This document shows positions 37,858-63,487 of a stretch of DNA of 64,000 bases, one piece after another. Each line of letters opens with the position of its first letter. Positions within the stretch are counted from its first letter, which is position 1. The notes below the pieces were generated by a model, which saw only the letters and a list, made by a program, of their open reading frames with translations, did not search any database and was not told the DNA's origin. This DNA is from Myxococcota bacterium. GTDB taxonomy: Bacteria; Myxococcota; XYA12-FULL-58-9; JALHOP01. Both the position numbers and the translations under genes were made by a program. Where the stretch lies: assembly GCA_022842935.1 (NCBI GenBank), contig JALHOP010000002.1, positions 496,001-560,000 on the forward strand. Reading direction: 5' to 3'.

Positions 37858-37874
37858 GACGAACAACACCCTCA

Positions 37875-37889
37875 GCAAGCGGTGTGCCG
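37875..37889 (-). promoter_or_regulatory. Sigma-54-type (-24/-12) promoter candidate upstream of fliL
   Basis: On the minus strand CGGCAC (37884-37889), five bases, then TTGC (37875-37878) gives the invariant GG and GC at the correct ten-base spacing (consensus TGGCAC-N5-TTGC). An enhancer-binding activator is encoded in the island. The caveat is that the predicted transcript start (about 37863) leaves only a few bases before the fliL ATG and lies downstream of the apparent ribosome site. The site may be fortuitous or the true start may differ. Confidence 0.45.
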
Positions 37890-38322: not shown

Positions 38323-39117
38323 ATGGATCTCGCGGCAATCGGCGGCCTCGTCATCGCACTACTCGCGATCTTTGGCGGCTTCATGCTGGAAGGTGGTCAC
38401 CTCGCGGCGATTCTCCAACCAACCGCTGCATTCATCGTCTTTGGCGGGACCATCGGCGCCACAGCGATGCAGTTCCCGGGGTCGCAGCTCAAGGCCGCAC
38501 TGGGAGGATTGAAGAACGTCTTCATGCCCAAACACGAGGACATGGCCGAACTGGTCAAGCAACTCGTAGGATTCGCCAACAAGGCCCGGCGCGAGGGCCT
38601 GGTGTCGCTCGAAGCGGACGCCGAGAAGATCACCGACCCGTTCTTCAAGAAGGCGCTTGGCCTCGCCATCGACGGATGCGAAAGCGGACTACTACGCGAC
38701 ACCATGGACGTCGAAATTGGTCGGCGCGACGAAGAGGGCGAAGGAATCAGCAAGGTCTTCGAGGCCGCAGGTGGCTATTCGCCGGCGGTTGGAATTTTGG
38801 GCGCCGTTCTCGGCCTCATTCACGTCATGGGTAACCTCGCCGATCCATCGAAGCTCGGCGCTGGTATCGCGGTCGCCTTCGTCGCGACGGTCTACGGCGT
38901 CGCCATCGCGAACTTGTTCTTGTTGCCCTCGGCAACGAAGCTCAAGATTCGCCACACCCACGCCATGGCTCGCCTCGAGCTCATCGTCGTCGCGGTCACC
39001 AGCATCGTCGATGGCGAAAATCCGCGCGTCATCGAGCAGAAGCTCATGGGCTTCCTCGACGAGCACTCGGCAGCCGCCGCTGGTGGCGGTGAAGCTGGGA
39101 TGAAGAAAGCGGCCTAA
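38323..39117 (+). CDS. motA: Flagellar stator protein MotA
   Basis: Proton or sodium channel stator subunit in the inner membrane, 264 residues. Four helices: two near the N terminus (IGGLVIALLAIFGGFMLEGG) and two after the cytoplasmic loop. The signature GGYSPAVGILGAVLGLIHVM is followed by LGAGIAVAFVATVYGVAIAN. The cytoplasmic loop carries charged residues (KARREGLVSLEADAEKI) for contact with FliG. Coupled ion cannot be decided by eye. Confidence 0.97.
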   Translation: MDLAAIGGLVIALLAIFGGFMLEGGHLAAILQPTAAFIVFGGTIGATAMQFPGSQLKAALGGLKNVFMPKHEDMAELVKQLVGFANKARREGLVSLEADAEKITDPFFKKALGLAIDGCESGLLRDTMDVEIGRRDEEGEGISKVFEAAGGYSPAVGILGAVLGLIHVMGNLADPSKLGAGIAVAFVATVYGVAIANLFLLPSATKLKIRHTHAMARLELIVVAVTSIVDGENPRVIEQKLMGFLDEHSAAAAGGGEAGMKKAA

Positions 39118-39142
39118 CGGGCATTCCGAGGGAGAGTCCGCA

Positions 39143-40096
39143 ATGGCGCGCAAGAAGAAACACCCGGAGCACGTCAACCACGAACGATGGCTCATTTCGT
39201 ACGCTGACTTCATCACCCTGCTCTTCGCGTTCTTCACGTCGATGTACGCCATCTCGACCGTCGATGCGAAAAAGGCGGGTCAGCTCGTCTTCTCGACGCG
39301 CGCGGCGTTCAACATCGACTTCTTCCCGAGCGACAAGCCAACCCTGGGTGGGCGGGGTGGCACCGACTTCAGCGGTGCCGCCCGCACCAACGTCATCGGC
39401 GATGACATCGAGACCCGCGGTGGCAAAGGCCCTGGTAAAGGACCGGGAAAAGGCGGCGGTGGCAACACACGTGGCCAGCGGCTCGAGGGCATGGCGCGCA
39501 AGATCGACGCGGTCCTCGCGACCTTGGCCTCACCCGGCGGGGTCAAGGTCCGCCGAGAAGACGATCGTCTCATCGTCAGCCTCGCCGAACAGCTCTTCTT
39601 CGACGGCGGTAGGTCGACGTTGCGACCGAAGAACCTCGACACCTTCCATCGCATTATGACCGCGTTGGCGGACGGAAATACCGACATACGCGTCGAGGGT
39701 CATACCGATGACGAGCCCCTAACGCGTGGTCCCTACCGCAGTAACCTCGAGCTGTCGGTCGCGCGCGCCGTCAGTGTCGTCCGCTACTTGAACCACGAGT
39801 TTGCCTACCCGGCCGAGCTCACCAGCGTCGCCGGCTACTCCGACGCACACCCGCTCGCCGACAACGAAACCTCCGAAGGCCGAGCAAGGAACCGCCGCGT
39901 CGACATCGTCGTGTTCGCCGAGCCTCTACCGCGAGGCGCCGATGCGAACCCGACACCCGCCCCGATCGAGCCACCAGCGCCCTCGGAGATCACCGTCTCG
40001 CCGGCCGCGCGAGAGGCCTCACCAGGGACGCCTACGCCACCTCAGGAGACGATTGCTCCATCGATCGCTCCGAAGCTCGCACCGGGCGAGCACTAG
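39143..40096 (+). CDS. motB: Flagellar stator protein MotB
   Basis: A 317-residue peptidoglycan-anchored stator subunit. The single membrane helix contains the ion-binding Asp22 in SYADFITLLFAFFTSMYAIS. A Gly/Lys-rich repeat linker (GKGPGKGPGKGGGG) is followed by an OmpA-like domain (about residues 145-265: VEGHTDDEPLTRG, SNLELSVARAVSVVRYL, RARNRRVDIVVF). A Pro-rich C-terminal tail of 50 residues is extra. Ribosome site GAGGGAG precedes the ATG. Confidence 0.97.
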   Translation: MARKKKHPEHVNHERWLISYADFITLLFAFFTSMYAISTVDAKKAGQLVFSTRAAFNIDFFPSDKPTLGGRGGTDFSGAARTNVIGDDIETRGGKGPGKGPGKGGGGNTRGQRLEGMARKIDAVLATLASPGGVKVRREDDRLIVSLAEQLFFDGGRSTLRPKNLDTFHRIMTALADGNTDIRVEGHTDDEPLTRGPYRSNLELSVARAVSVVRYLNHEFAYPAELTSVAGYSDAHPLADNETSEGRARNRRVDIVVFAEPLPRGADANPTPAPIEPPAPSEITVSPAAREASPGTPTPPQETIAPSIAPKLAPGEH

Positions 40097-40156
40097 CGGC
40101 CCAGAGGCGTTGGTGAGTTGGTCGGACCGCACCTTTGCCTGCTACAACCTTCGCTC

Positions 40157-41272
40157 ATGAAGACCTGGGACGTGGCGCTAGCGCTGCGCGAATGGGCCTC
40201 CGAGCACAAGCTGCTGCAGACGGCGTTGCCCGAAGCATACGGAGACCCCGAGACCATCAAAGCGCCCTTAGCCGTCGTGCAGCAATCGCTCGCACGGCAC
40301 GTCGAGCTCTTCGAGCGCAACCCTATCACCGCGTTGGTGGTGAACGAGGCGCGCAAGACGGTCTTCGTTTACACCGCGAAGGCTGTCCCGAAGCGCAAGG
40401 CGCAAGCACTTCCAACGTCGGTCGTCGCGACCGCCAAGGACTTGGCGGTGACCATCGCGTACCGCCACGCCAAGCCATTGACCATCGGCAACGAGCAGCC
40501 CGACGCGCCACCTGCGTTGCCAGGTAGCGCCTTTGCCGACGGCCGCTATACATGCGGATCGTCAATCAGTATCGCCAACGACCGACAGGCAGGGACGTTG
40601 GGATGCCTGGTTCGCGACGCCAAAGGGAAACTGTACGGTCTCACCAACAATCACGTGACCGGCGGCTGCAACAACGCGCTGCCAGGGACGCCCATCCTGG
40701 CTCCCGGCGTCATGGACGTAGCCCCCGGCAACTACGACCCGTTCACCATAGGACATCACCACTCGGTCTTGCCTCTACATCAGGGCGAGCCCAACGTCGT
40801 CAACGCAAAGCTCAACACCGACGTTGCTCTGTTTACGATAGCGGACGAGGACCGCGTGTCGTCGATGCAGTCGAGCGCCTACGACACCCCTGTCGAGGTG
40901 GGTTCCTTCGCGGACGACATGCTGGTCGAGAAGGTCGGACGCACCACTGGCCTTACACGCGGAGTCGTCCAGGGGCTGGTTGTGGGTCCCGTCGGCGTCA
41001 TCTACAACGTGACCACGTACCACTCCGCTGCGGCGGGCACACCGTTCGTAGGCCGCGCATTCTTCGAGCCCGTGTATTTGGTGCACGGCGTCGGGGCGCC
41101 CTTCTCGTCGCCTGGCGACTCCGGCGCCTTGGTGACCGCCTTGAAGCGCGACGGCAAGCGCGTCGCCATCGGCCTGGTGTTCGCTGGACTCGTTCCCGCC
41201 GAGTCGTACGTGTTGCCTATCGCGCCCATCTTGAAGCGTCTCAAGGTGACGCTGGTCGCTGGGCACGGCTGA
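40157..41272 (+). CDS. Trypsin-like serine protease with N-terminal extension
   Basis: A 371-residue protein without a signal peptide. The chymotrypsin-fold triad is readable: His166 in LTNNHV, Asp222 in NTDVALF and Ser322 in SPGDSGA. Residues 1-125 form an additional domain, starting with a helix MKTWDVALALREWASEHK. The protease core has a GRTTGLTRGVVQGL block typical of intracellular trypsin-like enzymes. The start at 40157 is the first ATG after motB. Its TGA shares a base with the following ATG, coupling it to a 74-residue protein. Target unknown. It is not a flagellar component and lies in a short insertion between motB and the convergent flgE. Confidence 0.78.
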   Translation: MKTWDVALALREWASEHKLLQTALPEAYGDPETIKAPLAVVQQSLARHVELFERNPITALVVNEARKTVFVYTAKAVPKRKAQALPTSVVATAKDLAVTIAYRHAKPLTIGNEQPDAPPALPGSAFADGRYTCGSSISIANDRQAGTLGCLVRDAKGKLYGLTNNHVTGGCNNALPGTPILAPGVMDVAPGNYDPFTIGHHHSVLPLHQGEPNVVNAKLNTDVALFTIADEDRVSSMQSSAYDTPVEVGSFADDMLVEKVGRTTGLTRGVVQGLVVGPVGVIYNVTTYHSAAAGTPFVGRAFFEPVYLVHGVGAPFSSPGDSGALVTALKRDGKRVAIGLVFAGLVPAESYVLPIAPILKRLKVTLVAGHG

Positions 41273-41942: not shown

Positions 41943-43238
41943 CTAGCGCTTCAAATTCATGAGATCCTGAAGCATCTCGTCCGCGGTCGAGATGGTGCGC
42001 GAGTTCGCCTGGAAGCCACGCTGGTACTGGATCAAGTTCACGAACTCCTGCGCCATGTCGACATTCGACTGCTCGAGCGACCCACTCGCAATCGACCCGT
42101 GACCGCCGCTGCCAGGGGTGCCGATGAGCGGCTGACCGCTGTCGACGGTTGCGGCGAACATGCTGCTACCAGTGCGGGCGAGACCGTTGTTGTTGCGGAA
42201 GCGAGCGACCGCCACTTGGCCGAGGACGCGTTGATCACCGTTCGAGAACGCGCCCATGATGCGACCGTCGCTGGTCACGTTGATGCCCGCAAGTGACCCG
42301 GCGGTGAAACCGTCTTGCTGGATGTTCGACATGGCGGACGGCGCAGCGTACGCCGTACTCCCGGCGCGGCCTGTGCCACCACTGGCCGTGTCGTCGCCGA
42401 AGCTCCAGGCAATGGCCTGGCCAGGGGCGGCGCCAACGAAGTCGACCGTCGACGCCGTCGTGGTCTGTGCCGTCAGCGCGCCGCTGGTGTCGAAGGTCAA
42501 GGTACCATTGGCGATCTCGCTGGCTCCGCCAGGAGGACCGCCGACGACTTCGTCACCGTCCGCCAAAGCGTGCCACTCCCAGTTGCCGGGTGAAGACTGA
42601 CGAAAATACACGTCGATGGTGTGCTCGCCGCCAAGCGAGTCGTAGACCCGCATCGACGTGGAGAAGTTCGACGTCGTACCGGGGTTTGTGGGATCCCAGG
42701 CAGCGACCGCCGGCGACGCGGCGTTGAGGTTAGCGGCGATGGTCGCCTGCGTCGTGACGCGTGGCTCCGAGGTAGCGTTCGAGGCGATGATGACGTCGCC
42801 GAGTGTGCCGCTGATGTTGCCCGCGCCGTCGGCCTGATAGCCTTGCACGACCAGCCCTTGGGCGTTCACCAGGCGACCCTGGTTGTCGAGGTTGAACTGG
42901 CCGTTGCGCGTGTAATAGCTGCCAGCGTTGCCCTGCAGGTTGCCACGCGTGATGAAGAATCCGTCACCCGTGATTGCAAGGTCGGTTGCAACGCCCGAAC
43001 CCAGCAGCGCGCCCTGGGTGTAAACTTGGTCGACACCCGCGAGACGCGAGCCGTGCCCAGTCTGGGACTCGGTGACCTGCTGCGAGACGCTCTGACCCAA
43101 CACGTCTTCGAACCGACCGCGACCCGCCTTGAAGCCGATCGTGTTGACGTTGGCGAGATTGTCGCTGACCACGTCCATGGCTTTTCCGTGGGCGCCGAGG
43201 CCAGCCACAGACGAATAGAGTGAGCTCAAGATCGACAT
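41943..43238 (-). CDS. flgE: Flagellar hook protein FlgE
   Basis: A 431-residue hook subunit. N terminus SILSSLYSSVAGLGAHGKAM, then VVSDNLANVNTIGFKAGRGR; C terminus QSNVDMAQEFVNLIQYQRGF and QANSRTISTADEMLQDLMNL. The central D1/D2 beta domains are Gly/Ser/Thr-rich (about residues 120-330). Last gene of the second flagellar polycistron, 13 bases after flgD. Exported without a signal peptide. Confidence 0.97.
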   Translation of the reverse strand: MSILSSLYSSVAGLGAHGKAMDVVSDNLANVNTIGFKAGRGRFEDVLGQSVSQQVTESQTGHGSRLAGVDQVYTQGALLGSGVATDLAITGDGFFITRGNLQGNAGSYYTRNGQFNLDNQGRLVNAQGLVVQGYQADGAGNISGTLGDVIIASNATSEPRVTTQATIAANLNAASPAVAAWDPTNPGTTSNFSTSMRVYDSLGGEHTIDVYFRQSSPGNWEWHALADGDEVVGGPPGGASEIANGTLTFDTSGALTAQTTTASTVDFVGAAPGQAIAWSFGDDTASGGTGRAGSTAYAAPSAMSNIQQDGFTAGSLAGINVTSDGRIMGAFSNGDQRVLGQVAVARFRNNNGLARTGSSMFAATVDSGQPLIGTPGSGGHGSIASGSLEQSNVDMAQEFVNLIQYQRGFQANSRTISTADEMLQDLMNLKR

Positions 43239-43251
43239 TGGAGTTCTCCGT

Positions 43252-43926
43252 TCAAGGTTGCGAGACGCTGATCACGTCGGCGGGGGTTATGCGTTGGCCG
43301 CTGGCTCCGATGATCAGCTCCGCCGAGCCGTTCTCGAAGGTCACTTCCGTGACGACACCACGAACACGCGTCGAGGTCGTGACCACGCCGCCGCTCGCGT
43401 TCTTTCCACTGACTTCGACCGTGTACGTGCCGCTGGGGAGGGCGTTGCCCCCGTCATCCATCCCGTCCCAGAAGACGTCATGCGAGCCCGACTTGCCCCC
43501 ACCGAGCGGCATCGTTCGCACCACTTTGCCGTCGCTATCGCGTACCGTTAGCGTGGTCTCCGCGGTCTCGCCGCCGAGCGAGTAGCCGATCGCCATGGGG
43601 CGACTGTCACCGAGCGCCACCTTGTTGCCCGTGGCCTCGACCGTCGAGCCGATGAGGCCCGCCACCTGCGCGTTGTTCAAGGCCGTGCTGGTGTTCTGCA
43701 ACAGACCGAGGCGCTCGTTGGTCTGCATGGCCTGCTCGAGCGAGCTGAACTGCGCGAGCTGCGCCACGAACTCTTTGTCGTCGACCGGGTTCAACGGGTC
43801 CTGATTCTGGAGCTGCGCGACCAAGAGGTTGAGAAACTCTTGTTTGCCGAGCTGGGCGCCGCCGCCAAGAGCCTGGTCGATGGCCTGGGACGCGCTTGCG
43901 GTGGTGGTCGATCCGACTGTGGTCAT
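43252..43926 (-). CDS. flgD: Flagellar hook-capping protein FlgD
   Basis: A 224-residue scaffold at the tip of the growing hook. The N-terminal segment LGKQEFLNLLVAQLQNQDPL followed by NPVDDKEFVAQLAQFSSLEQ is the FlgD signature. The C-terminal half has FlgD Ig-like and tudor-like strands (VRTMPLGGGKSGSHDVFWDG, GNALPSGTYTVEVSGKNASG). Fourteen bases separate it from fliK. Confidence 0.95.
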   Translation of the reverse strand: MTTVGSTTTASASQAIDQALGGGAQLGKQEFLNLLVAQLQNQDPLNPVDDKEFVAQLAQFSSLEQAMQTNERLGLLQNTSTALNNAQVAGLIGSTVEATGNKVALGDSRPMAIGYSLGGETAETTLTVRDSDGKVVRTMPLGGGKSGSHDVFWDGMDDGGNALPSGTYTVEVSGKNASGGVVTTSTRVRGVVTEVTFENGSAELIIGASGQRITPADVISVSQP

Positions 43927-43940
43927 GGGAAGCTCCTCGC

Positions 43941-44822
43941 TCAGACGAGAACGTCGAGATCTTTCGTGTTTCGCTTCGTACGCTTTGGCGTACGCAGGGT
44001 TTCTTCGCTACCGTTCGTTTCCTCGCGTTCAGCGTGCTGATGGTGCGTCTGCGACTCGCCGCCAGCTCCGCGCTGGCTCATGCCATCGCTGGCTTGCAGG
44101 CTGACGTCGATGGAGCGAACGCTGACGCCCTGCTGCTGCAAAGCGGCTTGCAGCTCGGGCACGCGTTCACGCAGGAGCGCGGTAGCCTCAGGACGTTCGG
44201 TCTCGAGGGTGACCGTGACCTGCTCGTCGCGAAGACGCTGGACACGCACCTTCACTTCACCAAGCGATGCCGGCTTGAGCACCATGGTGATCTGGTGGTC
44301 ACCGCCCACGACATGGCGAGTCACGACCTCGACGACCTCGTGCGACGCCGTGATGACGCGCGTGGGCGCCGCTTGAGGCGCGACGGTCGCAGAGTCGAGG
44401 GTGGAGGTGAGCTGCTGGAGGGCGGCTTCCAGGGGCAGGGCGACCGGTTGATCGGTGGTCGTGAGGTCGAAGGAGGAGAGGTCGATGCCGTTCGGGCTAG
44501 GACGCGGACCGATCTCTTCGATACCCCATGGCGCATCCGTGTTCTCGGCCACCGTAGCGGACTTCGCGGCGGGCGTAGGAGGAGGCACAATGGGCGCGAG
44601 CTGCAAGGTGGCGACCGGCGTCGCTTCGACCATGGGTGTGCCGTCGCCGCGACGATCGTTCTCTTCGGGCGGAGCCTTGGCTGGTCCGCTGGTGCTGACC
44701 AGACCCAAGGTCGCGGCGAACACCGAGCTGGCCTCGGCCGTCACGGTCTCATGCTCGCGCGTGGCTGGATCCTGCGGAGGCGCGAGAAACATCGCGGCAC
44801 TATCTGTGGGGGCGCGCATCAC
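43941..44822 (-). CDS. fliK: Flagellar hook-length control protein FliK
   Basis: A 293-residue molecular ruler. The N-terminal 180 residues are low complexity (Pro/Ala/Thr/Ser), as expected for the disordered ruler part. Residues 185-260 contain the Flg_hook domain (ITMVLKPASLGEVKVRVQRL, LRERVPELQAALQQQGVSVR), which triggers the FlhB export switch. The charged tail ends RTPKRTKRNTKDLDVLV. Located between the motE-like gene and flgD, with a four-base overlap upstream. Confidence 0.87.
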   Translation of the reverse strand: MMRAPTDSAAMFLAPPQDPATREHETVTAEASSVFAATLGLVSTSGPAKAPPEENDRRGDGTPMVEATPVATLQLAPIVPPPTPAAKSATVAENTDAPWGIEEIGPRPSPNGIDLSSFDLTTTDQPVALPLEAALQQLTSTLDSATVAPQAAPTRVITASHEVVEVVTRHVVGGDHQITMVLKPASLGEVKVRVQRLRDEQVTVTLETERPEATALLRERVPELQAALQQQGVSVRSIDVSLQASDGMSQRGAGGESQTHHQHAEREETNGSEETLRTPKRTKRNTKDLDVLV

Positions 44823-45388
44823 TTGTCGTCCTTCTGGGCTTTCGCTTTGGCTAAGGGATCGGCACGGCCACCCAGTTGCGTGAGCCTGCCAAGTAGGGTC
44901 GCGGCCGTGGCGGGGTCGATCTGACTGAGCAGTGCCATCGCGTTGTCGGGCGCGACACGCGACAACACTTGCACCGCAAGCTCGGGCTCAGCGCGCTCGA
45001 GAATGGGCGCCGCCTTACGCGGCGACAGTCGAGACAACGCGCTCACGAGCTCTTCGGTTCGTTTCTTCTGAGCGGCGTTTGCTTGCTCACCGATGCCGAC
45101 GCGGTCTTCGAGGCTCGCGAGCTCGCGCTCGAGCTTCTGTGCTCGTGCGGCAATCTCGCTCTCGAGTTGTTTCAGCGCGGCCTCACGCTCATCGAGCTTG
45201 CGAGTGCGCTCGTCGAGCGCCATACGACGCTCGCGCAGGCTCTGCGCCATGGTCTCGTCACAGGTAGCGAGCGCCGGCGTCGCGCTACTGGTGTTGCCCG
45301 TGGTTTGCGGCACACCGTCGACATTGCCCGCGGCCACGGATACGCCCGCGGCCGAGACGATGAGTATGGAGAGCACGAGGCGTTTCAT
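44819..45388 (-). CDS. motE: MotE-like flagellar coiled-coil protein (MgtE-N-type domain)
   Basis: A 189-residue protein with an N-terminal signal or anchor helix (LVLSILIVSAAGVSVAAG). A long coiled coil covers about residues 45-110 (RMALDERTRKLDEREAALKQ and following). The C-terminal helical domain of the MgtE N-domain/FliG-like type (ALSRLSPRKAAPILERAEPE, AMALLSQIDPATAATLLGRL) follows. In rhizobia MotE stabilises MotC and the motor in the periplasm; here the fliJ-fliK position supports a motor or export role. Symbol by analogy. Confidence 0.72.
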   Translation of the reverse strand: MKRLVLSILIVSAAGVSVAAGNVDGVPQTTGNTSSATPALATCDETMAQSLRERRMALDERTRKLDEREAALKQLESEIAARAQKLERELASLEDRVGIGEQANAAQKKRTEELVSALSRLSPRKAAPILERAEPELAVQVLSRVAPDNAMALLSQIDPATAATLLGRLTQLGGRADPLAKAKAQKDDK

Positions 45389-45774
45389 CCACGATTCCAG
45401 GCGATCGCTGCGAGCTCATCCATGAGTCGCCCTTCACGCGTTTCGCTCTCGGCGATTGCGGCGGCACGCTGGCGCTCGACCATGAGCTCAGCCTGCTTGT
45501 TTGCTAGCGCGGATGCGCGAGTGACGCTGGCGGCTTGTTCGCGCGACTGCGCGAGACTCGCGATTCGGCGTGTTAGACCCGCTCGCTGGGCATCCGCTTC
45601 GACCAGCTGGGCAGCGGTCACAGGCGCGCGCTGTACCTCGGCCATCATGGCCCGCTCTTGTGCGGACAATGCCGCGCGTGAACGCGCGATCTCGCCCTCG
45701 ACGGTGGCCAGGTTGCGCATGGCACGTTGATGTTCGATTGCGCGAATCTTCTGTACGCGATGCATTCCACTCAC
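45385..45774 (-). CDS. fliJ: Flagellar export protein FliJ
   Basis: A 129-residue protein that is almost entirely antiparallel coiled coil (HRVQKIRAIEHQRAMRNLAT, LMVERQRAAAIAESETREGR). Acts as the stalk linking the FliI ATPase ring to FlhA. Sequence conservation of FliJ is low; length, coiled-coil form and the fliH-fliI-fliJ order carry the call. GTG start overlaps the fliI stop (GTGA). Confidence 0.85.
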   Translation of the reverse strand: MSGMHRVQKIRAIEHQRAMRNLATVEGEIARSRAALSAQERAMMAEVQRAPVTAAQLVEADAQRAGLTRRIASLAQSREQAASVTRASALANKQAELMVERQRAAAIAESETREGRLMDELAAIAWNRG

Positions 45775-47123
45775 GGGTTAGCTCCTAGCTTTGCGTCTGC
45801 GTCGACTTCGGCACCGGCAAGGGCAATGAGGCCGCGCTGCGTCGCGTCGGCGGTCATGGGCTCGTGAACCTGCTGCTTGAGAAACGCTTCGATCTGCGGC
45901 CGCTTGGCCAGTGCGACGTCGAGCTCCTGATCGCTGCCTGGGCGATAGGCGCCGATCGCCAACAAGTCCTTGGCGTCTTCGAGCCGGGCCATCCAACCAC
46001 GCACCTTCTGCGTCATCCTTCGCTCGCGCGCGTCAGTGAGGTCGCCCTCGAGACGCGAAATCGACTGAAGGACGTCGATGGCTGGGAAGTGGCCGCGCTC
46101 GGCCAGACGGCGGGACAACATCACATGTCCATCGAGCAAGCCTCGTGCCGCGTCGGAAACGGGTTCGCGAAAGTCGTCGCCCTCCACCAGCACCGTGTAG
46201 AGACCCGTAATACTTCCGCCGGCTTTGGCGGGGGCGGCCCGCTCGAGCAGGGTGGGCAAGAGGGCGAAAGAGCTCGGCGGGTAGCCCTTGGTCGCCGGCG
46301 GTTCTCCGACGGCCAAGCCAATTTCCCGTTGGGCCATGCACAGACGCGTCAAAGAATCGACGAACAAGAGAACGGACCGACCCTGCGAGCGGAAGTGCTC
46401 CGCGATGGTGGTCGCAGTGAAGGCGGCGCGGACACGCTCGGGCGCGGGCCGGTCCGAGGTCGCGACGACGACCACGGCGTTCTTCATGCCGTCACCCAAA
46501 ACCTTGTCGACGAAGTGACCGACTTCGCGGCCGCGCTCACCAACCAATGCCATGACCACGACGTCCGCTGTAGCGGCTTCGGCAATCATACCAAGCAATA
46601 CGCTCTTGCCGACGCCGGGACCTGCGAAGATGCCGAGGCGTTGGCCGCGACCACAAGGGATGAAGGCGTCTAGGGCGCGCACGCCCAGGGGCATACGCTC
46701 CTCGACTGGAGCCCTCTCGGTCGTCGGCAGGGGTGTACCAAACAGGGGCAAGCGGTCGCTGCAAACCGGTAGCGGCTTGTCGTCGAGGGGCCGACCGAAG
46801 GCGTCGATGACACGACCGCGTAAACCGTCGCCGACCGGCACAGCCCAAGCTTCCTCGTCGCGCGTGAGGGCGGCGCCGACACGCAAGCCCGAGAGGTTAC
46901 CGAAGGGCATCAAAACGACTTCGCGCTGCTTGAGGGCGACGACCTCCGCGAGGACGTCACCACGCGGACCAGCGATGCGATACAGGTCGCCAACGGCGGC
47001 GTTGGGGACGCGGGCCTCGATGAGCATGCCGAGCACCTGGGTCACATGTCCCTGGAGCTGCAGGGTCGGTTTCTTCACGCGGTCGCGATAGCGTGCAAGA
47101 ACGGAGGCAGGAGCCGCACTCAC
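45771..47123 (-). CDS. fliI: Flagellum-specific ATPase FliI
   Basis: A 450-residue cytoplasmic hexameric ATPase of the export apparatus, homologous to F1-beta. Walker A AGPGVGKS at residues 167-174, Walker B region RSVLLFVDSLTRLCMAQREI, and the ParA-like AQREIGLAVGEPPATKGYPP block of FliI/YscN. GTG start overlaps fliH. The C-terminal chaperone-binding part ends VDADAKLGANP. Confidence 0.97.
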   Translation of the reverse strand: MSAAPASVLARYRDRVKKPTLQLQGHVTQVLGMLIEARVPNAAVGDLYRIAGPRGDVLAEVVALKQREVVLMPFGNLSGLRVGAALTRDEEAWAVPVGDGLRGRVIDAFGRPLDDKPLPVCSDRLPLFGTPLPTTERAPVEERMPLGVRALDAFIPCGRGQRLGIFAGPGVGKSVLLGMIAEAATADVVVMALVGERGREVGHFVDKVLGDGMKNAVVVVATSDRPAPERVRAAFTATTIAEHFRSQGRSVLLFVDSLTRLCMAQREIGLAVGEPPATKGYPPSSFALLPTLLERAAPAKAGGSITGLYTVLVEGDDFREPVSDAARGLLDGHVMLSRRLAERGHFPAIDVLQSISRLEGDLTDARERRMTQKVRGWMARLEDAKDLLAIGAYRPGSDQELDVALAKRPQIEAFLKQQVHEPMTADATQRGLIALAGAEVDADAKLGANP

Positions 47124-47788
47124 GGTTCAGCTCCCGCTAAGCGTAGACTGCTTGCACCGGGTTTCAAGCCCCGCGCCACGTTACGAAGGGCCTCGGCGAA
47201 GGTCGCGTCGACGCGGCCGAGCTCGCATTCGGCGAGCACGCCACCGGCTCCTACACTGATGTCGTCGATGACGGTCACGCGTCGCGCGACATCGGCGCCG
47301 GCGCTCTGCACGGCGGCATCGACACCCGCGCGCTCGCTTGGGTGAACGCGAAGACGAATGACTTCGGCTTTGTCGAGCAACTGCAGGGCCTGACTCGCCA
47401 TGGCCCGCGTGAAGCGCTGGCGGGCGTCAGGGTCTCCGCTGACGAGGACCTCCGCGATGAGCAAAGCGAGCTCGACGAGATCTTCTTCGCTTCGTGCAAT
47501 AATGCTATCGCGGACAGCACCAAGCTGCGCGATGCTGTTTTCGAGTCGCTCGCGCAGTTGCGCGGTCTCGGCGAGCGCAGCCGCGCGTCCTTCCTCGACA
47601 CCCTCGTGGTGAGCCGCGAGAATCGCGGCGTCGCGAGCCACCGCGGCCCCATCGACCTCGACCTCCGCGTCGGCGCCAACCGCCCACTCGGGACGGCGAG
47701 GCGTGACCGGCTCCACTCGCGCGAAAGGTACGGTCGAGACATTCCTCGGGCTACCTTCACCGAACAAGCTGGAGACGTTGCGGCTCAC
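47120..47788 (-). CDS. fliH: Flagellar export regulator FliH
   Basis: A 222-residue stator-like regulator of FliI. The disordered Arg/Val/Pro-rich N terminus is followed by a long helix with small-residue spacing (AAHHEGVEEGRAAALAETAQ) and then a V-ATPase-E-like domain (IARSEEDLVELALLIAEVLV, PSERAGVDAAVQSAGADVAR, GAGGVLAECELGRVDATFAE). GTG start overlaps the fliG stop. Confidence 0.92.
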   Translation of the reverse strand: MSRNVSSLFGEGSPRNVSTVPFARVEPVTPRRPEWAVGADAEVEVDGAAVARDAAILAAHHEGVEEGRAAALAETAQLRERLENSIAQLGAVRDSIIARSEEDLVELALLIAEVLVSGDPDARQRFTRAMASQALQLLDKAEVIRLRVHPSERAGVDAAVQSAGADVARRVTVIDDISVGAGGVLAECELGRVDATFAEALRNVARGLKPGASSLRLAGAEP

Positions 47789-48810
47789 GCCATGCCCTCC
47801 CCGTCACCCATATCGACGTTGAGCTTGCCCTCTTGGCGCAGCTTCATGGCGACGGCGACGATGGCCTGTTGTGCCTCCTCGACGACGGTGACGCGTTGCG
47901 GACCGAGCATCTCGAGGTCGTCTTTCATCATCTCGGCGGCGCGCTTCGAGAGACCATCGAAGATCTTGTTGCGCATCTCCTCGCTCGCGGTCTTGAGCGC
48001 GATGAGCAGCTGCTGGTTGTCGACGCCCTTGAGCAACGTTTGGATGCCCTTCTTGTCGAGGCGAGCAAGATCGTCGAACGTGAACATGGCGCGACGCACG
48101 CTGCCGGCGACGTCGGGCGTCTCCTCGGAGATGCTGGCCAAGATGGCCTCGGCTTCCTCACCATCGAGCTGATTCAAGAGCAGCGCCGCAACGCGCGTCC
48201 CATCGACCTCGGCGTCACGGGTCTCGCGCGTCGGCAACTCGGCGGCGAGCAAGCGTTCGGCCTCTTCGAGCGCCGGAGCAGCGATGGTCTTGATGCGGGC
48301 GAGCCTCGAGACGATGCCCTTCAGCGACTCCTCTGGCATCGCTTTCAGAACGGCTGCGGCGCGCTTCGGGTCGAGACGGGCGACCACCGCGGCGACCACC
48401 TGCGGGTGTTCCTGAGCGAGCAGAGTGGCGAGCGCTTCCGGGTCGGCTTCGGCGATGGTGGGGTTAGCCGTTGGACGCGGAGGCTCATTGGTGCCGAAGA
48501 CAGCGCTGATCACGTTGCGCGGAACACTGCGCTCAGCCAGCTGCCGCAAGTAAGGGGCCTTGCCGTTGAGGCGCAGGCCTGGACGCTCCACTGCGTTCGA
48601 TAGCTCGGCGTGAATCGCGGCGAGCTCCTCCGACGTCGCGCGTTCGACCCGCTGCGCCGCAGCGTAGAGAATCTTGAGCTCCTCTTCGTCGAGAGCCGCC
48701 AAAACTTCGGCGGCCGTCGAATCGTCGACACTGAGGATCCACATCGCGGCTTTGACGGGACCGTCCATCTGGCCACCGAAATCGCTCTGCATGCTCAACG
48801 CGCTGCTCAT
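47785..48810 (-). CDS. fliG: Flagellar motor switch protein FliG
   Basis: A 341-residue C-ring rotor protein. Armadillo domains and the EHPQ motif (LLAQEHPQVVAAVVARLDP) are present. The torque domain carries the charged helix (DDLARLDKKGIQTLLKGVDN and LIALKTASEEMRNKIFDGLS KRA). The ATG at 48810 is chosen because it overlaps the fliF TGA by four bases; five codons further upstream also stay open. Binds FliF through its N terminus and MotA through its C terminus. Confidence 0.97.
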   Translation of the reverse strand: MSSALSMQSDFGGQMDGPVKAAMWILSVDDSTAAEVLAALDEEELKILYAAAQRVERATSEELAAIHAELSNAVERPGLRLNGKAPYLRQLAERSVPRNVISAVFGTNEPPRPTANPTIAEADPEALATLLAQEHPQVVAAVVARLDPKRAAAVLKAMPEESLKGIVSRLARIKTIAAPALEEAERLLAAELPTRETRDAEVDGTRVAALLLNQLDGEEAEAILASISEETPDVAGSVRRAMFTFDDLARLDKKGIQTLLKGVDNQQLLIALKTASEEMRNKIFDGLSKRAAEMMKDDLEMLGPQRVTVVEEAQQAIVAVAMKLRQEGKLNVDMGDGEGMA

Positions 48811-50414
48811 GACTCGTTCAACCAACCTTTGATGACAGTGCTCGCCTGGCTACCGCGGGCGCTACCTGCCAGCGGCATCTGCCCAGCGGCCAAGGCTGCA
48901 ACGTTCACGCCATTGTTCTGGATAGCGGATACGTTGACGGAACCGTTCGGAGCGGCGAGCTGCGCCTCGAGCTCGCGCACGCTGATAGGGGCGCGAATGA
49001 TCTCCGCGCGCCCGGCGTCGAGCGCTCGGCTCTTCTTCGAGAGGAGCGACAGCGCAACCAACGAGAGCGCGGCGACGACGATGGCCGCGCTTGGGCGAGC
49101 GAAGCGGGTCGCAACCTCGAGCACCTTCGGGCCTTCGGTCATCGGCTCGTCGAGCGCCTCCACGAAGGGGGCGCTCTGCACCTCGATGCGGTCGCCACGG
49201 CGGCCGTCGAAGCCAACCGCCGACTTCACGAGCTCGGAGAAGCGGTCGAGCTCTTCGCGACTGCGCGGGGTGACGTTGACGGCACCGCCTTCGCCCTTTT
49301 CGCGTTTGGCATCGACGAGCACCGCCACGGACAAGCGAACGAGCTTGCCAGAGGCGGAGACTTCGTGGCTCACCGTCTTCGACACCTCGTAGTTGCGCGT
49401 CTGGGCGTGGCGACCACCAGCATTGCCCACGGCGCCAGCCGCAGGGGTCTGGTCACTACCGCTCGTGGTGCCCGCAAGGTTCGAACGTGATCCGGCGACG
49501 CCGATCGCGCCCGCGGTCGCGGAGCCCCGCGTCTCGTCCGTCGTTTGCTCGCTGCGCAAGACAACGCCGTCGGGGTCGTAGGTTTCGCTCGTGGTTTCGG
49601 CGGTCGAGTAGTCGAGCTCGGCGGACACGTGCACCGACGCCCCCCCGGGCCCCACCGTCCGTTCGAGCATCGTCGTCGCACGGCGCTCGAGCTCTGACTC
49701 GATGCCCCGTTGGTGCTCGAGCTGCCGGCCGCTCTGTGCGTGGGTGCCGTCAGCGCTCGCGAGGACTGCGCCGGTCGTGTCGACGACGGTTACCGCGTCG
49801 GCAGCCAGCCCCTCGACGCTCGACGCAGTGAGGTGAACGATTGCTTGAACGTTCTCATCGGTAAGCCGTCGCCCCGGCGCGAGCGAGAGGGTCACCGAAG
49901 CGCGTGGTTTGTCGTCGCGCTCACGAAAGAGTGAACGCTCTGGCAGGCCCAGATGCACACGGGCGTCGCGCACGCCGTTGATCTGCCGAATCGTGCGGCG
50001 CAGCTCGCCTTCGAGCGCTCGCTGGTAGCTCAGTCGCTCTTCGAAGCGCGTACGGCCGAGCTTGCTCTCGTCGAAGAGCTCGAACCCAACTCCACCGCCG
50101 CGGGGCAGGCCATCACCCGCAAGCGCCAGGCGCTGCTCCATGACGCGCTCGTCGGGCACCAGGATCGCGGTGCCACCGTCCGCTAGGCTGTACGGTACTT
50201 GCGACGCGGACAAGCGCGCTGTGATCGCGGAGATATCTTCCGGTGAAAGGTTCGTCATCAGCGGCGCCATATGGGGTGTGCCGCCCAGAACCGCGATCGC
50301 GCCGACCGCGATCAAAGCGATAACGACGAAGCCGATGCCGAGGAGGCGCTTTCCGGGGGCAATGCCACGCCACAAGGCGCCGACTTCACTGAAGGACTGC
50401 TGAAGCTTGCCCAC
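48807..50414 (-). CDS. fliF: Flagellar MS-ring protein FliF
   Basis: A 535-residue inner-membrane ring protein. First helix at about residues 24-45 (LLGIGFVVIALIAVGAIAVL), then ring-building motifs (LSPEDISAITARLSASQVPY, LPRGGGVGFELFDESKLGRT, ERLSYQRALEGELRRTIRQI). The second helix is near residue 445 (AAIVVAALSLVALSLLS), and a cytoplasmic tail binds FliG. GTG start three bases after fliE. Confidence 0.97.
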   Translation of the reverse strand: MGKLQQSFSEVGALWRGIAPGKRLLGIGFVVIALIAVGAIAVLGGTPHMAPLMTNLSPEDISAITARLSASQVPYSLADGGTAILVPDERVMEQRLALAGDGLPRGGGVGFELFDESKLGRTRFEERLSYQRALEGELRRTIRQINGVRDARVHLGLPERSLFRERDDKPRASVTLSLAPGRRLTDENVQAIVHLTASSVEGLAADAVTVVDTTGAVLASADGTHAQSGRQLEHQRGIESELERRATTMLERTVGPGGASVHVSAELDYSTAETTSETYDPDGVVLRSEQTTDETRGSATAGAIGVAGSRSNLAGTTSGSDQTPAAGAVGNAGGRHAQTRNYEVSKTVSHEVSASGKLVRLSVAVLVDAKREKGEGGAVNVTPRSREELDRFSELVKSAVGFDGRRGDRIEVQSAPFVEALDEPMTEGPKVLEVATRFARPSAAIVVAALSLVALSLLSKKSRALDAGRAEIIRAPISVRELEAQLAAPNGSVNVSAIQNNGVNVAALAAGQMPLAGSARGSQASTVIKGWLNES

Positions 50415-50417
50415 GGC

Positions 50418-50726
50418 TTAGCCTCCCATCCGCATGATTTCTCGATAGGCGTCGAGCACCTTGTTGCGGACGCTCACCATGAACTTGAGTGAGACGTCGC
50501 CTTTCTCCATGGCCAGCAAAGTGTCGTGCAGGTCGAGCTCGCCGCCCTTTGCCAACTTGTCGGCGGCCTGGTTCGCCTCGACGTTGCGCTGCACGGTGGA
50601 CTCTACGGCGCCCTGCAGCGCGTCGACGAAGTTGCCGCCGCTGTCCGCTTTCGCGGGCGACTGTATCTTGGTGAGGGCCTCGCGCAGCGGCGCGATGGTG
50701 TTGCGAGGGTCAATGGGCATGGCCAT
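50418..50726 (-). CDS. fliE: Flagellar hook-basal body protein FliE
   Basis: A 102-residue junction protein between MS ring and rod. Family pattern: FVDALQGAVESTVQRNVEAN, then HDTLLAMEKGDVSLKFMVSV and RNKVLDAYREIMRMGG at the C terminus. Three-base gaps to flgC and fliF. The flgB-flgC-fliE-fliF order is ancestral. Confidence 0.95.
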   Translation of the reverse strand: MAMPIDPRNTIAPLREALTKIQSPAKADSGGNFVDALQGAVESTVQRNVEANQAADKLAKGGELDLHDTLLAMEKGDVSLKFMVSVRNKVLDAYREIMRMGG

Positions 50727-50729
50727 GTC

Positions 50730-51161
50730 TTATTTCCCGATCTGGAGCGCGCGCTCCGCCATGGCGACGACCGAGTTCATCGCTTGCGAGCTTGCCTCGT
50801 AGGCGCGCGTCGCTGTCAGCATATTGACCATCTCTTCCACCGGATTGACGTTTGGCATGGCGACGTAACCGTCGCCGTTGGCGTCAGGATGCGAGGGGTC
50901 GTAGGTGAGGCGCGGCGGCGAGTCGTCGACGGCGACATCCGCCACTTCGACCGTCGACATGGCGGCGGCGAGCGACGCGTCGAAGGCAGCGTTCGGGTTC
51001 TCTTGCGCCGCAAACACCGGGTCGCGACGCTTGTAAGGTCCGCCCTCGGCGGTGCGCGTGGTCTGTGCGTTCGCGAGGTTCGAGGCACTGGCGTTCATGC
51101 GAACACGCTCGGCGCGCAAGCCAGAAGCCAAGATGTCCATGGTATTGAAGAGATCCATCAT
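50730..51161 (-). CDS. flgC: Flagellar proximal rod protein FlgC
   Basis: A 143-residue rod subunit with N-terminal TMDILASGLRAERVRMNASA and SNLANAQTT, the FlgC-specific segment GYVAMPNVNPVEEMVNMLTA, and C-terminal RAYEASSQAMNSVVAMAERA. Two tandem ATGs; the first overlaps the flgB stop. Confidence 0.96.
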   Translation of the reverse strand: MMDLFNTMDILASGLRAERVRMNASASNLANAQTTRTAEGGPYKRRDPVFAAQENPNAAFDASLAAAMSTVEVADVAVDDSPPRLTYDPSHPDANGDGYVAMPNVNPVEEMVNMLTATRAYEASSQAMNSVVAMAERALQIGK

Positions 51162-51532
51162 GAGCCTCCGTCGGTAGCGGCGTAGCGAAGCAGAGCGACT
51201 TGGCGGCGCGCGACTTCGATACCGGCCTCGTAGCGCAGACGATTCGCCGTCACGGCAGCCATGGCCTGCTCGAGCTGCACGCCGTTGCCGTCAACGCGGG
51301 GCGTCTCGAGCTCGATGACCGGGGTAGAGGAGCCGTCACCGGAGGCCGCGATGTGCCCGGCGCTCGTCGTCTCGAGAGTCGCGCTACCGGGCTCGGCTTT
51401 CACGAGGTCGTGCGAGACGTAGCCAGGTGTCTCGGCGTTCGCGAGATTCGCGGCGAGCACCGATTGCCGCTTCGCGTGGAAGTCCAGCATGCTCTGGGTG
51501 GGTGCCAACTCTCTGAACATGTCCAACTTCAT
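51158..51532 (-). CDS. flgB: Flagellar proximal rod protein FlgB
   Basis: A 124-residue rod subunit. LDFHAKRQSVLAANLANAET PGY is the rod motif; the C-terminal NGVQLEQAMAAVTANRLRYE and AGIEVARRQVALLRYAATDG complete the FlgB pattern. Its ATG overlaps the stop of the unknown exported protein, placing that gene at the head of the same operon. Confidence 0.95.
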   Translation of the reverse strand: MKLDMFRELAPTQSMLDFHAKRQSVLAANLANAETPGYVSHDLVKAEPGSATLETTSAGHIAASGDGSSTPVIELETPRVDGNGVQLEQAMAAVTANRLRYEAGIEVARRQVALLRYAATDGGS

Positions 51533-52788
51533 GGGGCCTCTTTTCCGAGGTGACGACGCAAGCGTTGCAAGCGTCGCTCCAAACCCGCGAAGACGTCGTC
51601 GAGATCCTGAACCGGCGCCGAAGGTGGCGGAGAAACGCTCTCAGGGACCTCGAGACGGTCGCGCGTTGCGAGAGCGAACGCCCCGCTCAAGGCCGTCAAA
51701 GCGTTGACGTCGCCGGTCGCCACGTAGGCGTCGATGAGCACGGCCCACGCCCCAAGGGGCGCATCGGGTCGCGGCACCGCGCCAGCCATCATCGGCGAAA
51801 GAACGGCGATGGCACGCTCGTTCAGGTCGATCTGCGTTAAGGCGCGCGCCGTCTCGAGACGCATCATCGCCGCGTCGGGGTGCTTGATGACACGCTCGCC
51901 GTTGTCCGTGACCCAGGTCGCAAGCTCGACGGCACTGGCGCGGCGCGTTGCCACCGCTCGCGCGGTGAGCGTCTCGCGGATCGTTTGCGCGCTCGGTCGC
52001 AGCGCACCACCGGTCACGCGGCCAGCGGCATTCATGGCCGCATCGACCGCCTTGCTCGTGGCCAACATCTGCATGACGAGCACGGCTTCGCGCCCCGCCC
52101 AGATTCCGAGCGCACCATCGAGGCCCTTGATGGCGTGCAGCAATCCAGGCCAGTCGATCTCTTGTCCTGCGACACAAGCAAAGCCGACGGCACGCAGGCG
52201 CGCGATGAGACTGACGCTGCGCTCGCGATAGCGCTCAACGACCTGCGTGTAGCCGCGACAACCGGCGTCACGCTCGCCGGTGAGAATGCCGATGTCCGCG
52301 GCGCGCAAGAGGGCCCACGCGTGGACCGGCGTTCCGTCGCCGATCTTGGCAAGGAGCCGCTCGGCATCTCGGAAGCGCTCTGCCGCTATAGCGCTATCAG
52401 CGGCGCGTAGACCCTGGCCGATACCGACCACACCGCTGAGCTCGGGGGTCCTCTCCAGGAGGTGACGGCGCAGGGCGTCTTCCCGACCCGCAAGCGTCAC
52501 AACCAACGTCGCCTTCGCCCCCGGACGCACCGTTGCACCCGTGAAGGCGAGAGTCGTGTTGAAGGTGAGCCAAAGGTGGCGCTTGCCGACCTGCACGACG
52601 TTCCCCGTCACTGCCGGCGGAACGACGAGCTCAGGCAAGCGCACCGACTCACCCGCCGTCACGACCTCGACGTCGAGATGACTGCCATCGATGCTGATGG
52701 AGGTGCGTGCATTCGCGTCCCGGCCGAGCTCGACCTCGAAGGTCACTGGGCTCGCGAGAAGAACAGAAAGAAAGCACGCGATCGCCAT
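51529..52788 (-). CDS. Exported protein of unknown function at the head of the flgB operon
   Basis: A 419-residue protein with a short N-terminal hydrophobic segment (AIACFLSVLLASPV). A beta-rich domain lies at residues 20-115 (VEVVTAGESVRLPELVVPPA, GKRHLWLTFNTTLAFTGATV). About 250 residues of Ala/Arg-rich helices resembling tetratricopeptide-type repeats follow, and the tail is charged (LERRLQRLRRHLGKEAP). The frame remains open upstream of the chosen ATG, so the signal could be longer. Translation is coupled to flgB by a four-base overlap. Not a recognised flagellar part; a periplasmic assembly factor is a reasonable guess only. Confidence 0.7.
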   Translation of the reverse strand: MAIACFLSVLLASPVTFEVELGRDANARTSISIDGSHLDVEVVTAGESVRLPELVVPPAVTGNVVQVGKRHLWLTFNTTLAFTGATVRPGAKATLVVTLAGREDALRRHLLERTPELSGVVGIGQGLRAADSAIAAERFRDAERLLAKIGDGTPVHAWALLRAADIGILTGERDAGCRGYTQVVERYRERSVSLIARLRAVGFACVAGQEIDWPGLLHAIKGLDGALGIWAGREAVLVMQMLATSKAVDAAMNAAGRVTGGALRPSAQTIRETLTARAVATRRASAVELATWVTDNGERVIKHPDAAMMRLETARALTQIDLNERAIAVLSPMMAGAVPRPDAPLGAWAVLIDAYVATGDVNALTALSGAFALATRDRLEVPESVSPPPSAPVQDLDDVFAGLERRLQRLRRHLGKEAP

Positions 52789-53052
52789 AGCGAGCGTAGA
52801 CAGAGCACCCGGCGTGCCAGCGCCGAACGATACGAAAAGACGGGAGCGACGACGATCTCGTCAACCGTTTGACGGAAGCCTGACCGCCATAACGGGTTCC
52901 GTTGGCCGTTCCGCCGGTTTGTCGACGGGTCACGGCAACGCGTGTCCTACATGATCCCCCGGGGTTCGGAGGCACCATGGAGTCGGGTAGACTCGACCGG
53001 CACGCTAGGGCGCCAGCGCTCACCTCGGTCATCGACGACGCGCGTGGGAACT
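52789..53052. promoter_or_regulatory. 264-base leader region of the second flagellar operon
   Basis: This interval separates the operon head (52788) from the stop of the sigma-54 activator (53053). No gene is credible in it. The best promoter-like element is a sigma-28-type match at 53029-53055. A GG/GC pair suggestive of sigma-54 (52935-52949) has nine instead of ten bases between the invariant doublets and is not accepted. Confidence 0.35.
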
Positions 53053-53055
53053 TTA
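53029..53055 (-). promoter_or_regulatory. Sigma-28-like promoter candidate for the flgB operon
   Basis: On the minus strand TAAA (53052-53055) is followed by 15 bases and GTCGATGA (53029-53036). This nearly duplicates the fliC element (TAAA-N15-GGCGATGA). It overlaps the stop codon of the activator gene and would leave a leader of about 234 bases. In most bacteria this operon is an earlier class, so a sigma-28 promoter would be an additional late input. Confidence 0.35.
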
Positions 53056-54450
53056 GGCCGGGTCGACGATCGCGAGCTTCTTCAAGCGCTCGACCAGCGT
53101 CGTTCGCTTCAGGCCAAGGATCTCAGCGGCCTTTGCCTTGTTGCCACCACTTCGCTGCAGCGCGTCGAGGGTCAGTTTGCGCTCGAGGGCTTCGAGCGCC
53201 TTGTCGAGGGGAACTCCACCGGCAAGCGCGGGTGCATCGTTCGTCGCGGGTAATGCGACGAGGGGGGCTTGCGCCGGGGACGGTGTCGCTGGGCGCATCT
53301 GCGGCGGCAAGTCCGCGACGGTGATGCGTGTGCCCTTCGCGAGGATGACCAGACGCTCGATGAGGTTTTGCAGCTCGCGGACGTTACCCTTCCACGGATA
53401 GGCCGCGAAAGCAGTCGCGACTTCGGGCTCGACGCCGGTGATGTTGGTGCCGTGGCGCGCGTTCGCCCACCGAATGAAATGTGCAGTGAGCAGAGGCAGG
53501 TCGGACAGGCGCTCCTGCAGCGTCGGTAGCGAGAGCGGCATCACGTTCAAGCGATAGTAGAGGTCTTCGCGGAAGGAGCCGCTCGCGATGCGGTCCGTGA
53601 GGTCACGATTGGTCGCCGCAACGATGCGCACATCGACTTTGCGGGCTTTCGCGTCGCCCACGGCAGTGACTTCTTTGTCCTGAATGACACGAAGCAGCTT
53701 CGCCTGAAGGTCGAGGTGCATCTCGCCGATTTCGTCGAGAAACAGGGTACCGCCGTCGGCGGCTAGGAACTTCCCCTCGCGCCGCTCGTTTGCACCGCTG
53801 AATGCGCCCTTTGCGTGGCCGAAGAGCTCGCTCTCGATGAGATCCTTGGGGATCGCGGCGCAGTTCACAGCGACGAAGGGCTTACTACGACGCGACCCGC
53901 CATGATGGAGGGCGCGCGCACACAACTCCTTACCTGTGCCCGAAGCCCCTGTAATCAGCACGGTGCAATCCAACGACGAGACGCGCTCGATAATCGTCAG
54001 CGTGTCGAGAAGCTTCGGATCTTCGCCAATGAGATCGGGCGCATGCGCGTGGCGCCACTCGCGGCTCGCTTCTTCGGCCGTCTTGTTGGTGTCGAGGAGA
54101 CGCTCGAGGGTCGCGTGCAGGACGTTCCTGTCCAGCGGCTTGGTGAGGAAATCAGCCGCGCCCAGACGCATCGCCTCGACCGCAAGAGGCACCGACGCGG
54201 CCGCCGTCACGAGAACGACCCCTTTGACACCACCGCGTGCAAGCGCCGCCTTGAGAACGTCGATGCCATCGTATTCTGGCATCATGAGGTCGGTCAGCAC
54301 GACGTCGTAGGGACGCTGTTCGAGCTTCTCGATCGCTTCGCGCCCACTGCAGACGACATCGACCTCGACTTCGAGAGGTTGGATGAGCCGTGCCAAAATC
54401 GTGGCCATTGCACGGTCGTCGTCCACCAACAGGATGGTTCTAGCCGCCAT
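53053..54450 (-). CDS. Sigma-54-dependent response regulator of the FleR/FlrC (NtrC) type
   Basis: A 465-residue transcription activator. The receiver (residues 4-115) has phospho-acceptor Asp54 in LTDLMMP and Lys in FLTKP. The AAA+ domain has Walker A GASGTGKE (168-175), Walker [12 protein letters not shown], and the sigma-54-contact loop GAFSGA (215-220; consensus GAFTGA). The C-terminal Fis-type helix-turn-helix is seen as [20 protein letters not shown]. Location beside the flgB operon and absence of other targets suggest control of flagellar genes. Divergent from the hybrid kinase. Confidence 0.92.
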
Positions 54451-61114: not shown

Positions 61115-61155
61115 ACCCTCTTCAAGCTCACCTAGCTGCGCTCCGGCGGCGGTTT
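61111..61155 (+). repeat. 3' flanking segment resembling that at 55698 (copy 2)
   Basis: Starts at the TAG of the hydrolase gene: CTAGACC, CTCTTCAAGCTCACCT, then TGCGCTCCGGCGGCG. It fills most of the 39-base space to the convergent serpin gene. See copy 1 at 55698; similarity is by eye only. Confidence 0.3.
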
Positions 61156-63340: not shown

Positions 63341-63487
63341 CGGAGCAAGTCCGCTGAAGTTGCGCGGGAAAACGGTTTGCCACGCTGACGCCAGAGCCGC
63401 CGCCGCGTGACGACGTGTATGTACGAAGACCACGACCGATCCCGCGTCCACCAGCGCGCTCGGACCTTGGTGCCAAGGGTGCCCAAA
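63341..63487. promoter_or_regulatory. Divergent intergenic region between the serpin and the edge gene
   Basis: 147 bases that must hold promoters for both genes. An AAGGG ribosome-like site ends six to seven bases before the ATG at 63488. No clear sigma-70, sigma-28 or sigma-54 boxes are seen. Confidence 0.4.

Follow-up and report, generated by a model that had tools for sequence, protein, structure and literature searches.

A candidate compact flagellar-motor spoke protein encoded at the head of the flgB-flgE operon of a Myxococcota bacterium

P0001 is the product of the first gene in a flagellar operon of a Myxococcota bacterium, located within a window (the whole stretch of DNA that was analysed) of 64,000 nucleotides. 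The operon comprises 13 flagellar genes on the minus strand and extends to flgE at 41943. An NtrC-type sigma-54 activator gene lies directly upstream, and the stator genes lie on the opposite strand of the same cluster. The genes considered here are the following:

53053..54450, minus strand: NtrC-type sigma-54 activator, immediately preceding the operon (Pfam/NCBIfam)
52805..52819, minus strand: sigma-54-type -24/-12 site TGGCACGCCGGGTGC, matching 9/10 consensus positions, 31 nt before the P0001 ATG
51529..52788, minus strand: P0001, candidate spoke protein, 419 aa, opening the operon; a hydrophobic N terminus precedes an AMIN-like beta-sandwich and TPR-type helical repeats
51158..51532, minus strand: flgB (Flg_bb_rod)
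50730..51161, minus strand: flgC (Pfam/NCBIfam)
50418..50726, minus strand: fliE (Pfam/NCBIfam)
48807..50414, minus strand: fliF, MS-ring (Pfam/NCBIfam)
47785..48825, minus strand: fliG (Pfam/NCBIfam)
47120..47788, minus strand: fliH (Pfam/NCBIfam)
45771..47123, minus strand: fliI (Pfam/NCBIfam)
45385..45774, minus strand: fliJ (Pfam/NCBIfam, below cut-off)
44819..45388, minus strand: P0002, E-ring protein candidate of the FlgY/MotE/FlbB type, 189 aa, in which a signal-like N terminus is followed by a coiled coil and an MgtE_N/ARM-like C-terminal part
43941..44822, minus strand: fliK (Pfam/NCBIfam)
43252..43926, minus strand: flgD (Pfam/NCBIfam)
41943..43238, minus strand: flgE (Pfam/NCBIfam)
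38323..40096, plus strand: motA and motB, stator genes and candidate partners of P0001 (family search)
25169-25942 of the window: FlgA, ChapFlgA (family search)

The exact limits of the 419-residue reading frame given by an earlier note on this DNA were borne out, with an ATG start codon at 52788 on the minus strand. That note had further described the gene as translationally coupled to flgB and as the first of an otherwise entirely flagellar operon, and both descriptions agree with the sequence: the P0001 stop and the flgB start overlap by 4 nt (ATGA), and Pfam and NCBIfam models name the downstream genes from flgB to flgE. From one gene of the operon to the next, the spacing is -4, -4, 3, 3, -19, -4, -4, -4, -4, -4, 14 and 13 nt. 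The frame is considered a real gene because four relatives, at 21-24% identity to P0001, keep its frame, length, architecture and neighbours.

The intergenic region upstream of P0001 measures 264 nt and contains TGGCACGCCGGGTGC, whose position predicts a leader of about 5 nt. Only six sigma-54-type sites of this quality occur in the whole window, and a second one, at 37889 on the minus strand, is separated by 32 nt from a downstream ATG that shares the reading frame of fliL. Among the genomes of the same order that carry the gene, such a site is present in 4/5, at 26-31 nt before the start, which under the standard -24/-12 spacing would correspond to a near-leaderless transcript with a leader of 0-5 nt; in the fifth (G002), no site of at least 9/10 was found within 400 nt upstream of the homologue. 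Sites of at least 9/10 within 400 nt upstream of the homologue were detected at 7/34 loci versus 8/528 control windows. The two sites preceding flagellar operons in the window (37857-37889 and 52788-52819, both minus strand) share a spacing of 31-32 nt to the start codon, for which near-leaderless transcripts are predicted, and the spacing is also seen at spoke-gene homologues of several families.

An AlphaFold2 model of P0001, built from an alignment of four rows, reached a mean pLDDT of 63 and a pTM of 0.53. It contains a helix at residues 2-12, seven strands at 15-99 and about seven helical hairpins at 124-413, so that the beta domain and helical repeats proposed earlier are both visible at this level of confidence; pLDDT exceeds 80 in the repeats at 130-200 and confidence is low past residue 250. 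The protein features map to the window as follows:

52747..52788, minus strand: hydrophobic signal-like N terminus, residues 1-14 (sequence; helix 2-12 in the AlphaFold2 model)
52492..52746, minus strand: beta-sandwich, residues 15-99, AMIN-like by structure (AlphaFold2 and VIA)
51550..52419, minus strand: TPR-like helical repeats, residues 124-413, about seven hairpins (AlphaFold2, Foldseek and VIA; Pfam TPR sub-threshold)

Modelled alone from the same four-row depth of alignment (pLDDT 62), the sandwich has as its first-ranked VIA match the AMIN domain of AmiC (residues 46-145, Z 7.9, rmsd 2.3, 81 of 99 residues aligned), a score only about 1 above those of small heat-shock folds, and as its second PilQ (Z 6.7), followed by alpha-crystallin and CS folds, none of which scores above 6.7. 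The AMIN fold was itself revealed by the structure of AmiC, according to a reference title in PMC10954123. Foldseek returned no match to the isolated sandwich below E 0.05, with small heat-shock proteins at the top. On the model, the domain appears AMIN-like by VIA, its best matches being the AMIN domains of AmiC and PilQ. The C-terminal part is predicted to form a TPR superhelix: VIA aligned TPR domains over residues 118-258 of the whole model with Z up to 11.7 among the 50 matches listed.

When the whole model was compared with 350,542 PDB chains by Foldseek, the first-ranked and sole match with E <= 0.001 was 9hmf_K, a chain of 773 residues from an entry entitled "Periplasmic scaffold of the Campylobacter jejuni flagellar motor", the structure deposit of PMC12222027. 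The match has E 2.2e-4 and probability 0.99 over 500 columns, but a TMq of only 0.22 and an rmsd of 35.5, and 9hmf does not appear among the 50 VIA matches listed for the whole model. Construct limits given in PMC11870540 are 16-788 for PflA and 113-820 for PflB; 773 residues correspond to the former and not the latter, and the chain is thereby identified as PflA by length only. Further Foldseek matches fall on TPRs of many unrelated PDB chains (E 5e-3 to 7e-2). At the sequence level, searches of Pfam, NCBIfam and PDB sequences with P0001 returned nothing beyond sub-threshold TPR; profile searches of the PDB recovered almost only consensus or designed and eukaryotic TPRs, and neither phmmer nor the profile search of PDB chains gave a sequence match to a PflA-like chain.

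Relatives of P0001 were recovered by genome search in four of the seven other genomes of the order, while a contig scan with P0001 as the sole query found none. All four lie between an NtrC-type gene and flgB, immediately upstream of the latter. The earlier note had proposed co-occurrence with flagellar loci as a check, and the association holds at both levels surveyed. Within the order, the full-length family is present in 5/8 genomes, which are exactly the five with FlgC and FliE, and in 0/3 of those from which FliE and FlgC are absent (G003, G005 and G006). Across the phylum, FlgC exceeds its cut-off in 46/195 genomes (any match in 50), and full-length members occur in 35/46 FlgC-positive genomes versus 0/149 others (Fisher p 2.5e-29). 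This count of 35 combines the five order genomes with 30 full-length hits of a second profile, that of group B, which were compared with FlgC status by eye and all fall in FlgC-positive genomes. Weak profile matches outside the order, mostly short TPR stretches, were not counted, and a few at flgC loci were read as candidates.

Outside the order, 35 flgC loci were read. At 32 of them, a large gene of 382-925 aa with TPR-like sequence fills the slot that separates the regulator from flgB, and its product has a hydrophobic N terminus wherever the start is on the contig; G124 and G062 were placed in this set by their group B profile matches. The exceptions are G171, at a contig edge and with a match on another contig; G192, for which the sole match is partial and lies at another place on the contig; and G008 (L058), where an NtrC-type gene directly precedes flgB and no spoke candidate was seen there. 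The flgB surroundings of two FlgC-positive genomes lacking a full-length match, G161 and G021, were left out; in G021, a partial match is located 1.4 kb upstream of flgC. Group B unites 23 of these slot genes in one alignable family, and hhalign relates it to the order family through the helical part (probability 84, E 7.4e-6) in a comparison that omitted G124 and G062, both of which have full-length group B profile matches. Homology between the two families is supported by position and architecture, and weakly by sequence. An extra regulator gene often intervenes between the slot gene and flgB; within families f13, f17 and f21 (group B loci, L059-L090), many genomes have a receiver- or NtrC-like gene of about 290-370 aa at that point. 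Longer versions of 746-925 aa also occupy the slot upstream of flgB (L085 in G015, L062, L064 and L070), their added length being largely TPR-like, and in the family to which G008 belongs, three genomes carry a version of 746-779 aa. The assignment of the long f7, f8 and f14 versions is based solely on their position and on similarity at the TPR level. These observations qualify the earlier description of the protein as lineage-specific: the order-level sequence family is indeed restricted, but same-slot counterparts extend across the phylum, and the term should be weakened, since a widespread class has this architecture.

The broad range of TPR chains matched by Foldseek, together with the sub-threshold Pfam TPR signal, would also be expected of a general envelope protein of the BamD, LapB or PilF type that sits in the operon by chance. 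Such a reading is hardly plausible, given that no full-length member was found in any of the 149 FlgC-negative genomes and that the position is conserved across families.

The N terminus of P0001, MAIACFLSVLLASPV, is hydrophobic and has no positively charged n-region. The earlier term "signal-like" is consequently a fair one as regards the hydrophobic stretch, although the charges typical of such peptides are missing and a signal peptide proper is unproven. Hydrophobic N termini recur among the relatives. Eight cysteines are invariant in 23/23 group B sequences, which fits an oxidising compartment; in the order family, C177 is found in 5/5 sequences and C205 in 4/5. With so little charge at the N terminus, export is less certain; this, combined with the location of P0001 directly downstream of an NtrC-type gene, could suggest a cytoplasmic or regulatory checkpoint linking that regulator to basal-body assembly. 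The recurrence of hydrophobic N termini, the invariant cysteines and the AMIN-like fold make this extremely improbable.

The same operon encodes P0002, which carries, as judged from its sequence, the features of an E-ring protein: a signal or transmembrane N terminus, a coiled coil and a C-terminal MgtE_N-like ARM domain. Its MgtE_N match (E 1.5e-5) scores 25.9 bits against a cut-off of 25.9. It resembles FlgY, MotE and FlbB in these features and in its place beside fliJ and fliK, and both signature and synteny are those published for FlgY (PMC11870540, PMC13023049), but it differs from FlbB in that its score against NCBIfam collar_FlbB (E 5.7e-10, 39.3 bits) is far under the 110-bit cut-off. 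A P0002-like gene follows fliI(/J) and precedes fliK in 11/12 further genomes, G037 being an ambiguous exception. MgtE_N was detected in 10/10 P0002-like proteins scanned at E <= 2e-4, five of them over the cut-off, and the C-terminal domain was not seen in the P0002-like gene of G050. Use of the spirochaete FlbB model to count E-rings was rejected, since its broad coiled-coil matches extended to 66/195 genomes with none over the cut-off.

In Campylobacter, the spoke PflA connects the torque-generating stators with a ring that surrounds the rotor (PMC12222027, PMC11870540). Like P0001, PflA of Campylobacter jejuni and Helicobacter pylori is described as an N-terminal AMIN-like sandwich followed by a TPR superhelix; it is periplasmic and works with the FlgY E-ring (PMC12222027, PMC11870540). 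The P0001 operon holds an E-ring-type gene, and PflA provides the best PDB match of the P0001 model, with the chain identified from its length. The two differ in size, as PflA, at 788 aa, carries 16-17 TPRs together with a long linker wrapped around PflB (PMC12222027, PMC11870540), whereas P0001 is about half that length. They also differ in control: the E-ring and spoke genes of C. jejuni are described as lying outside RpoN control (PMC12222027, PMC11870540), while P0001 is preceded by a sigma-54 site. A trypsin-like gene located directly after motB (40118-41272, plus strand) was rejected as a possible counterpart of PflC, since its product has no signal-like N terminus and its only match is a sub-threshold one to plant Nal1_C.

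A second parallel is offered by MotK of Cereibacter sphaeroides and CC_2058 of Caulobacter, in which an AMIN-like N terminus likewise precedes a TPR-like remainder (PMC10954123). The best models reported for the MotK N terminus are AmiC and then PilQ (PMC10954123), and the P0001 sandwich likewise has the AMIN domain of AmiC first and that of PilQ second. MotK is larger (about 652 aa, with disordered regions, versus 419 aa), and its gene lies near motE (PMC13023049), usually after motA or motE, whereas P0001 lies upstream of flgB and is not adjacent to the motE-like gene, from which eight genes of the same operon separate it. MotC (Sinorhizobium) and FlcB (Borrelia) are described as further TPR-rich partners of the E-ring protein (PMC13023049) and are likened to P0001 on that description.

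P0001 can accordingly be read, with a probability of roughly 0.7, as a periplasmic flagellar-motor spoke of compact size and a functional equivalent of PflA and Cereibacter MotK. The earlier suggestion of a basal-body or periplasmic factor is thus supported by co-occurrence with FlgC and narrowed to a PflA/MotK-type spoke, on the grounds that an AMIN-like sandwich and TPR-type repeats are encoded in one operon with an E-ring gene. It is the presence of both halves of the spoke/E-ring pair in this operon that leads to the spoke reading, and the term "compact variant" is preferred to a full PflA because of the 419 aa and about seven hairpins, compared with the 16-17 TPRs of PflA. P0001 is most likely a variant of a known spoke class, the architecture of which is widespread.

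Two other roles could be envisaged for a protein of this architecture. In the first, P0001 would be a stator-anchoring factor only, comparable with MotK or MotY; its AMIN-like domain would bind peptidoglycan and its repeats would hold MotB open, with neither E-ring contact nor a spoke. MotK, with its similar architecture and its interaction with MotB2 (PMC10954123), lends this some weight, as does the presence of motAB about 11 kb from P0001 in the same cluster; P0001 nevertheless heads the MS-ring operon with its E-ring-type gene instead of standing beside motAB, and an anchoring role alone is judged unlikely. It also overlaps with the spoke reading, because MotK itself works with MotE (PMC13023049) and both interact with MotB2 (PMC10954123, PMC13023049).

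In the second, P0001 would act in the periplasm in the manner of FlgA, as a chaperone that helps to assemble rod or ring subunits, and its coupling to flgB would ensure their delivery in stoichiometric amounts. TPR proteins often serve as assembly factors, TPRs of the BamD type stand high in the VIA list, and the translational coupling to flgB would suit such a function. The genome nevertheless has its own FlgA, a regulator gene separates the homologue from flgB in many genomes, and the AMIN-like domain and E-ring synteny better suit a scaffold, so that a chaperone is distinctly improbable.

If P0001 is a compact spoke, it would be exported to the periplasm, where P0002 would build an E-ring around the MS-ring. 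The TPR-type arm of P0001 may dock on this ring, P0002 being its presumed partner, while the AMIN-like end, in the presumed orientation, would reach peptidoglycan, the stator (MotB) or both. The spoke could thereby position or stabilise stator units at a set radius, with a presumed effect on torque.

A tentative and rather doubtful extension of the spoke reading is that one slot upstream of flgB holds, across Myxococcota, a spoke varied, in the loci read, from 382 to 925 aa by gain or loss of TPRs, so that spoke length, and hence stator-ring radius and torque, would act as an evolutionary dial for which one gene gives the reading. Spoke and E-ring, both encoded in the MS-ring operon, would be built as an early sigma-54 module with a near-leaderless start, unlike those of Campylobacter. 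Were this the case, gene length would predict spoke length and stator radius.

In the published survey, a candidate from most phyla had to give a PF00515 TPR hit, contain at least three motifs and be encoded close to flagellar genes. No match of P0001 to PF00515 reaches E <= 1, and only 1/9 relatives scanned passed the PF00515 cut-off, so that this compact, repeat-degenerate branch would probably be missed. The string "Myxococc" is absent from the main text of PMC12222027, PMC11870540 and PMC13023049, and the branch would fill a gap for a phylum unnamed in the main text of those E-ring and spoke papers. The legend of Extended Data Figure 12 in PMC11870540 refers to PflAB homologues "for representative species across phyla", which could include one from Myxococcota; in the literature listings and passages covered, no paper describing this Myxococcota gene was seen.

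Two other reading frames of the window were also noted. The frame that holds FliO (35098-36408, minus strand) is long, at 436 aa, with the FliO domain at residues 324-378. A 926-aa frame at 61154-63934 on the minus strand combines a serpin domain with DUF6929/DUF6910 in what looks like an uncommon fusion.
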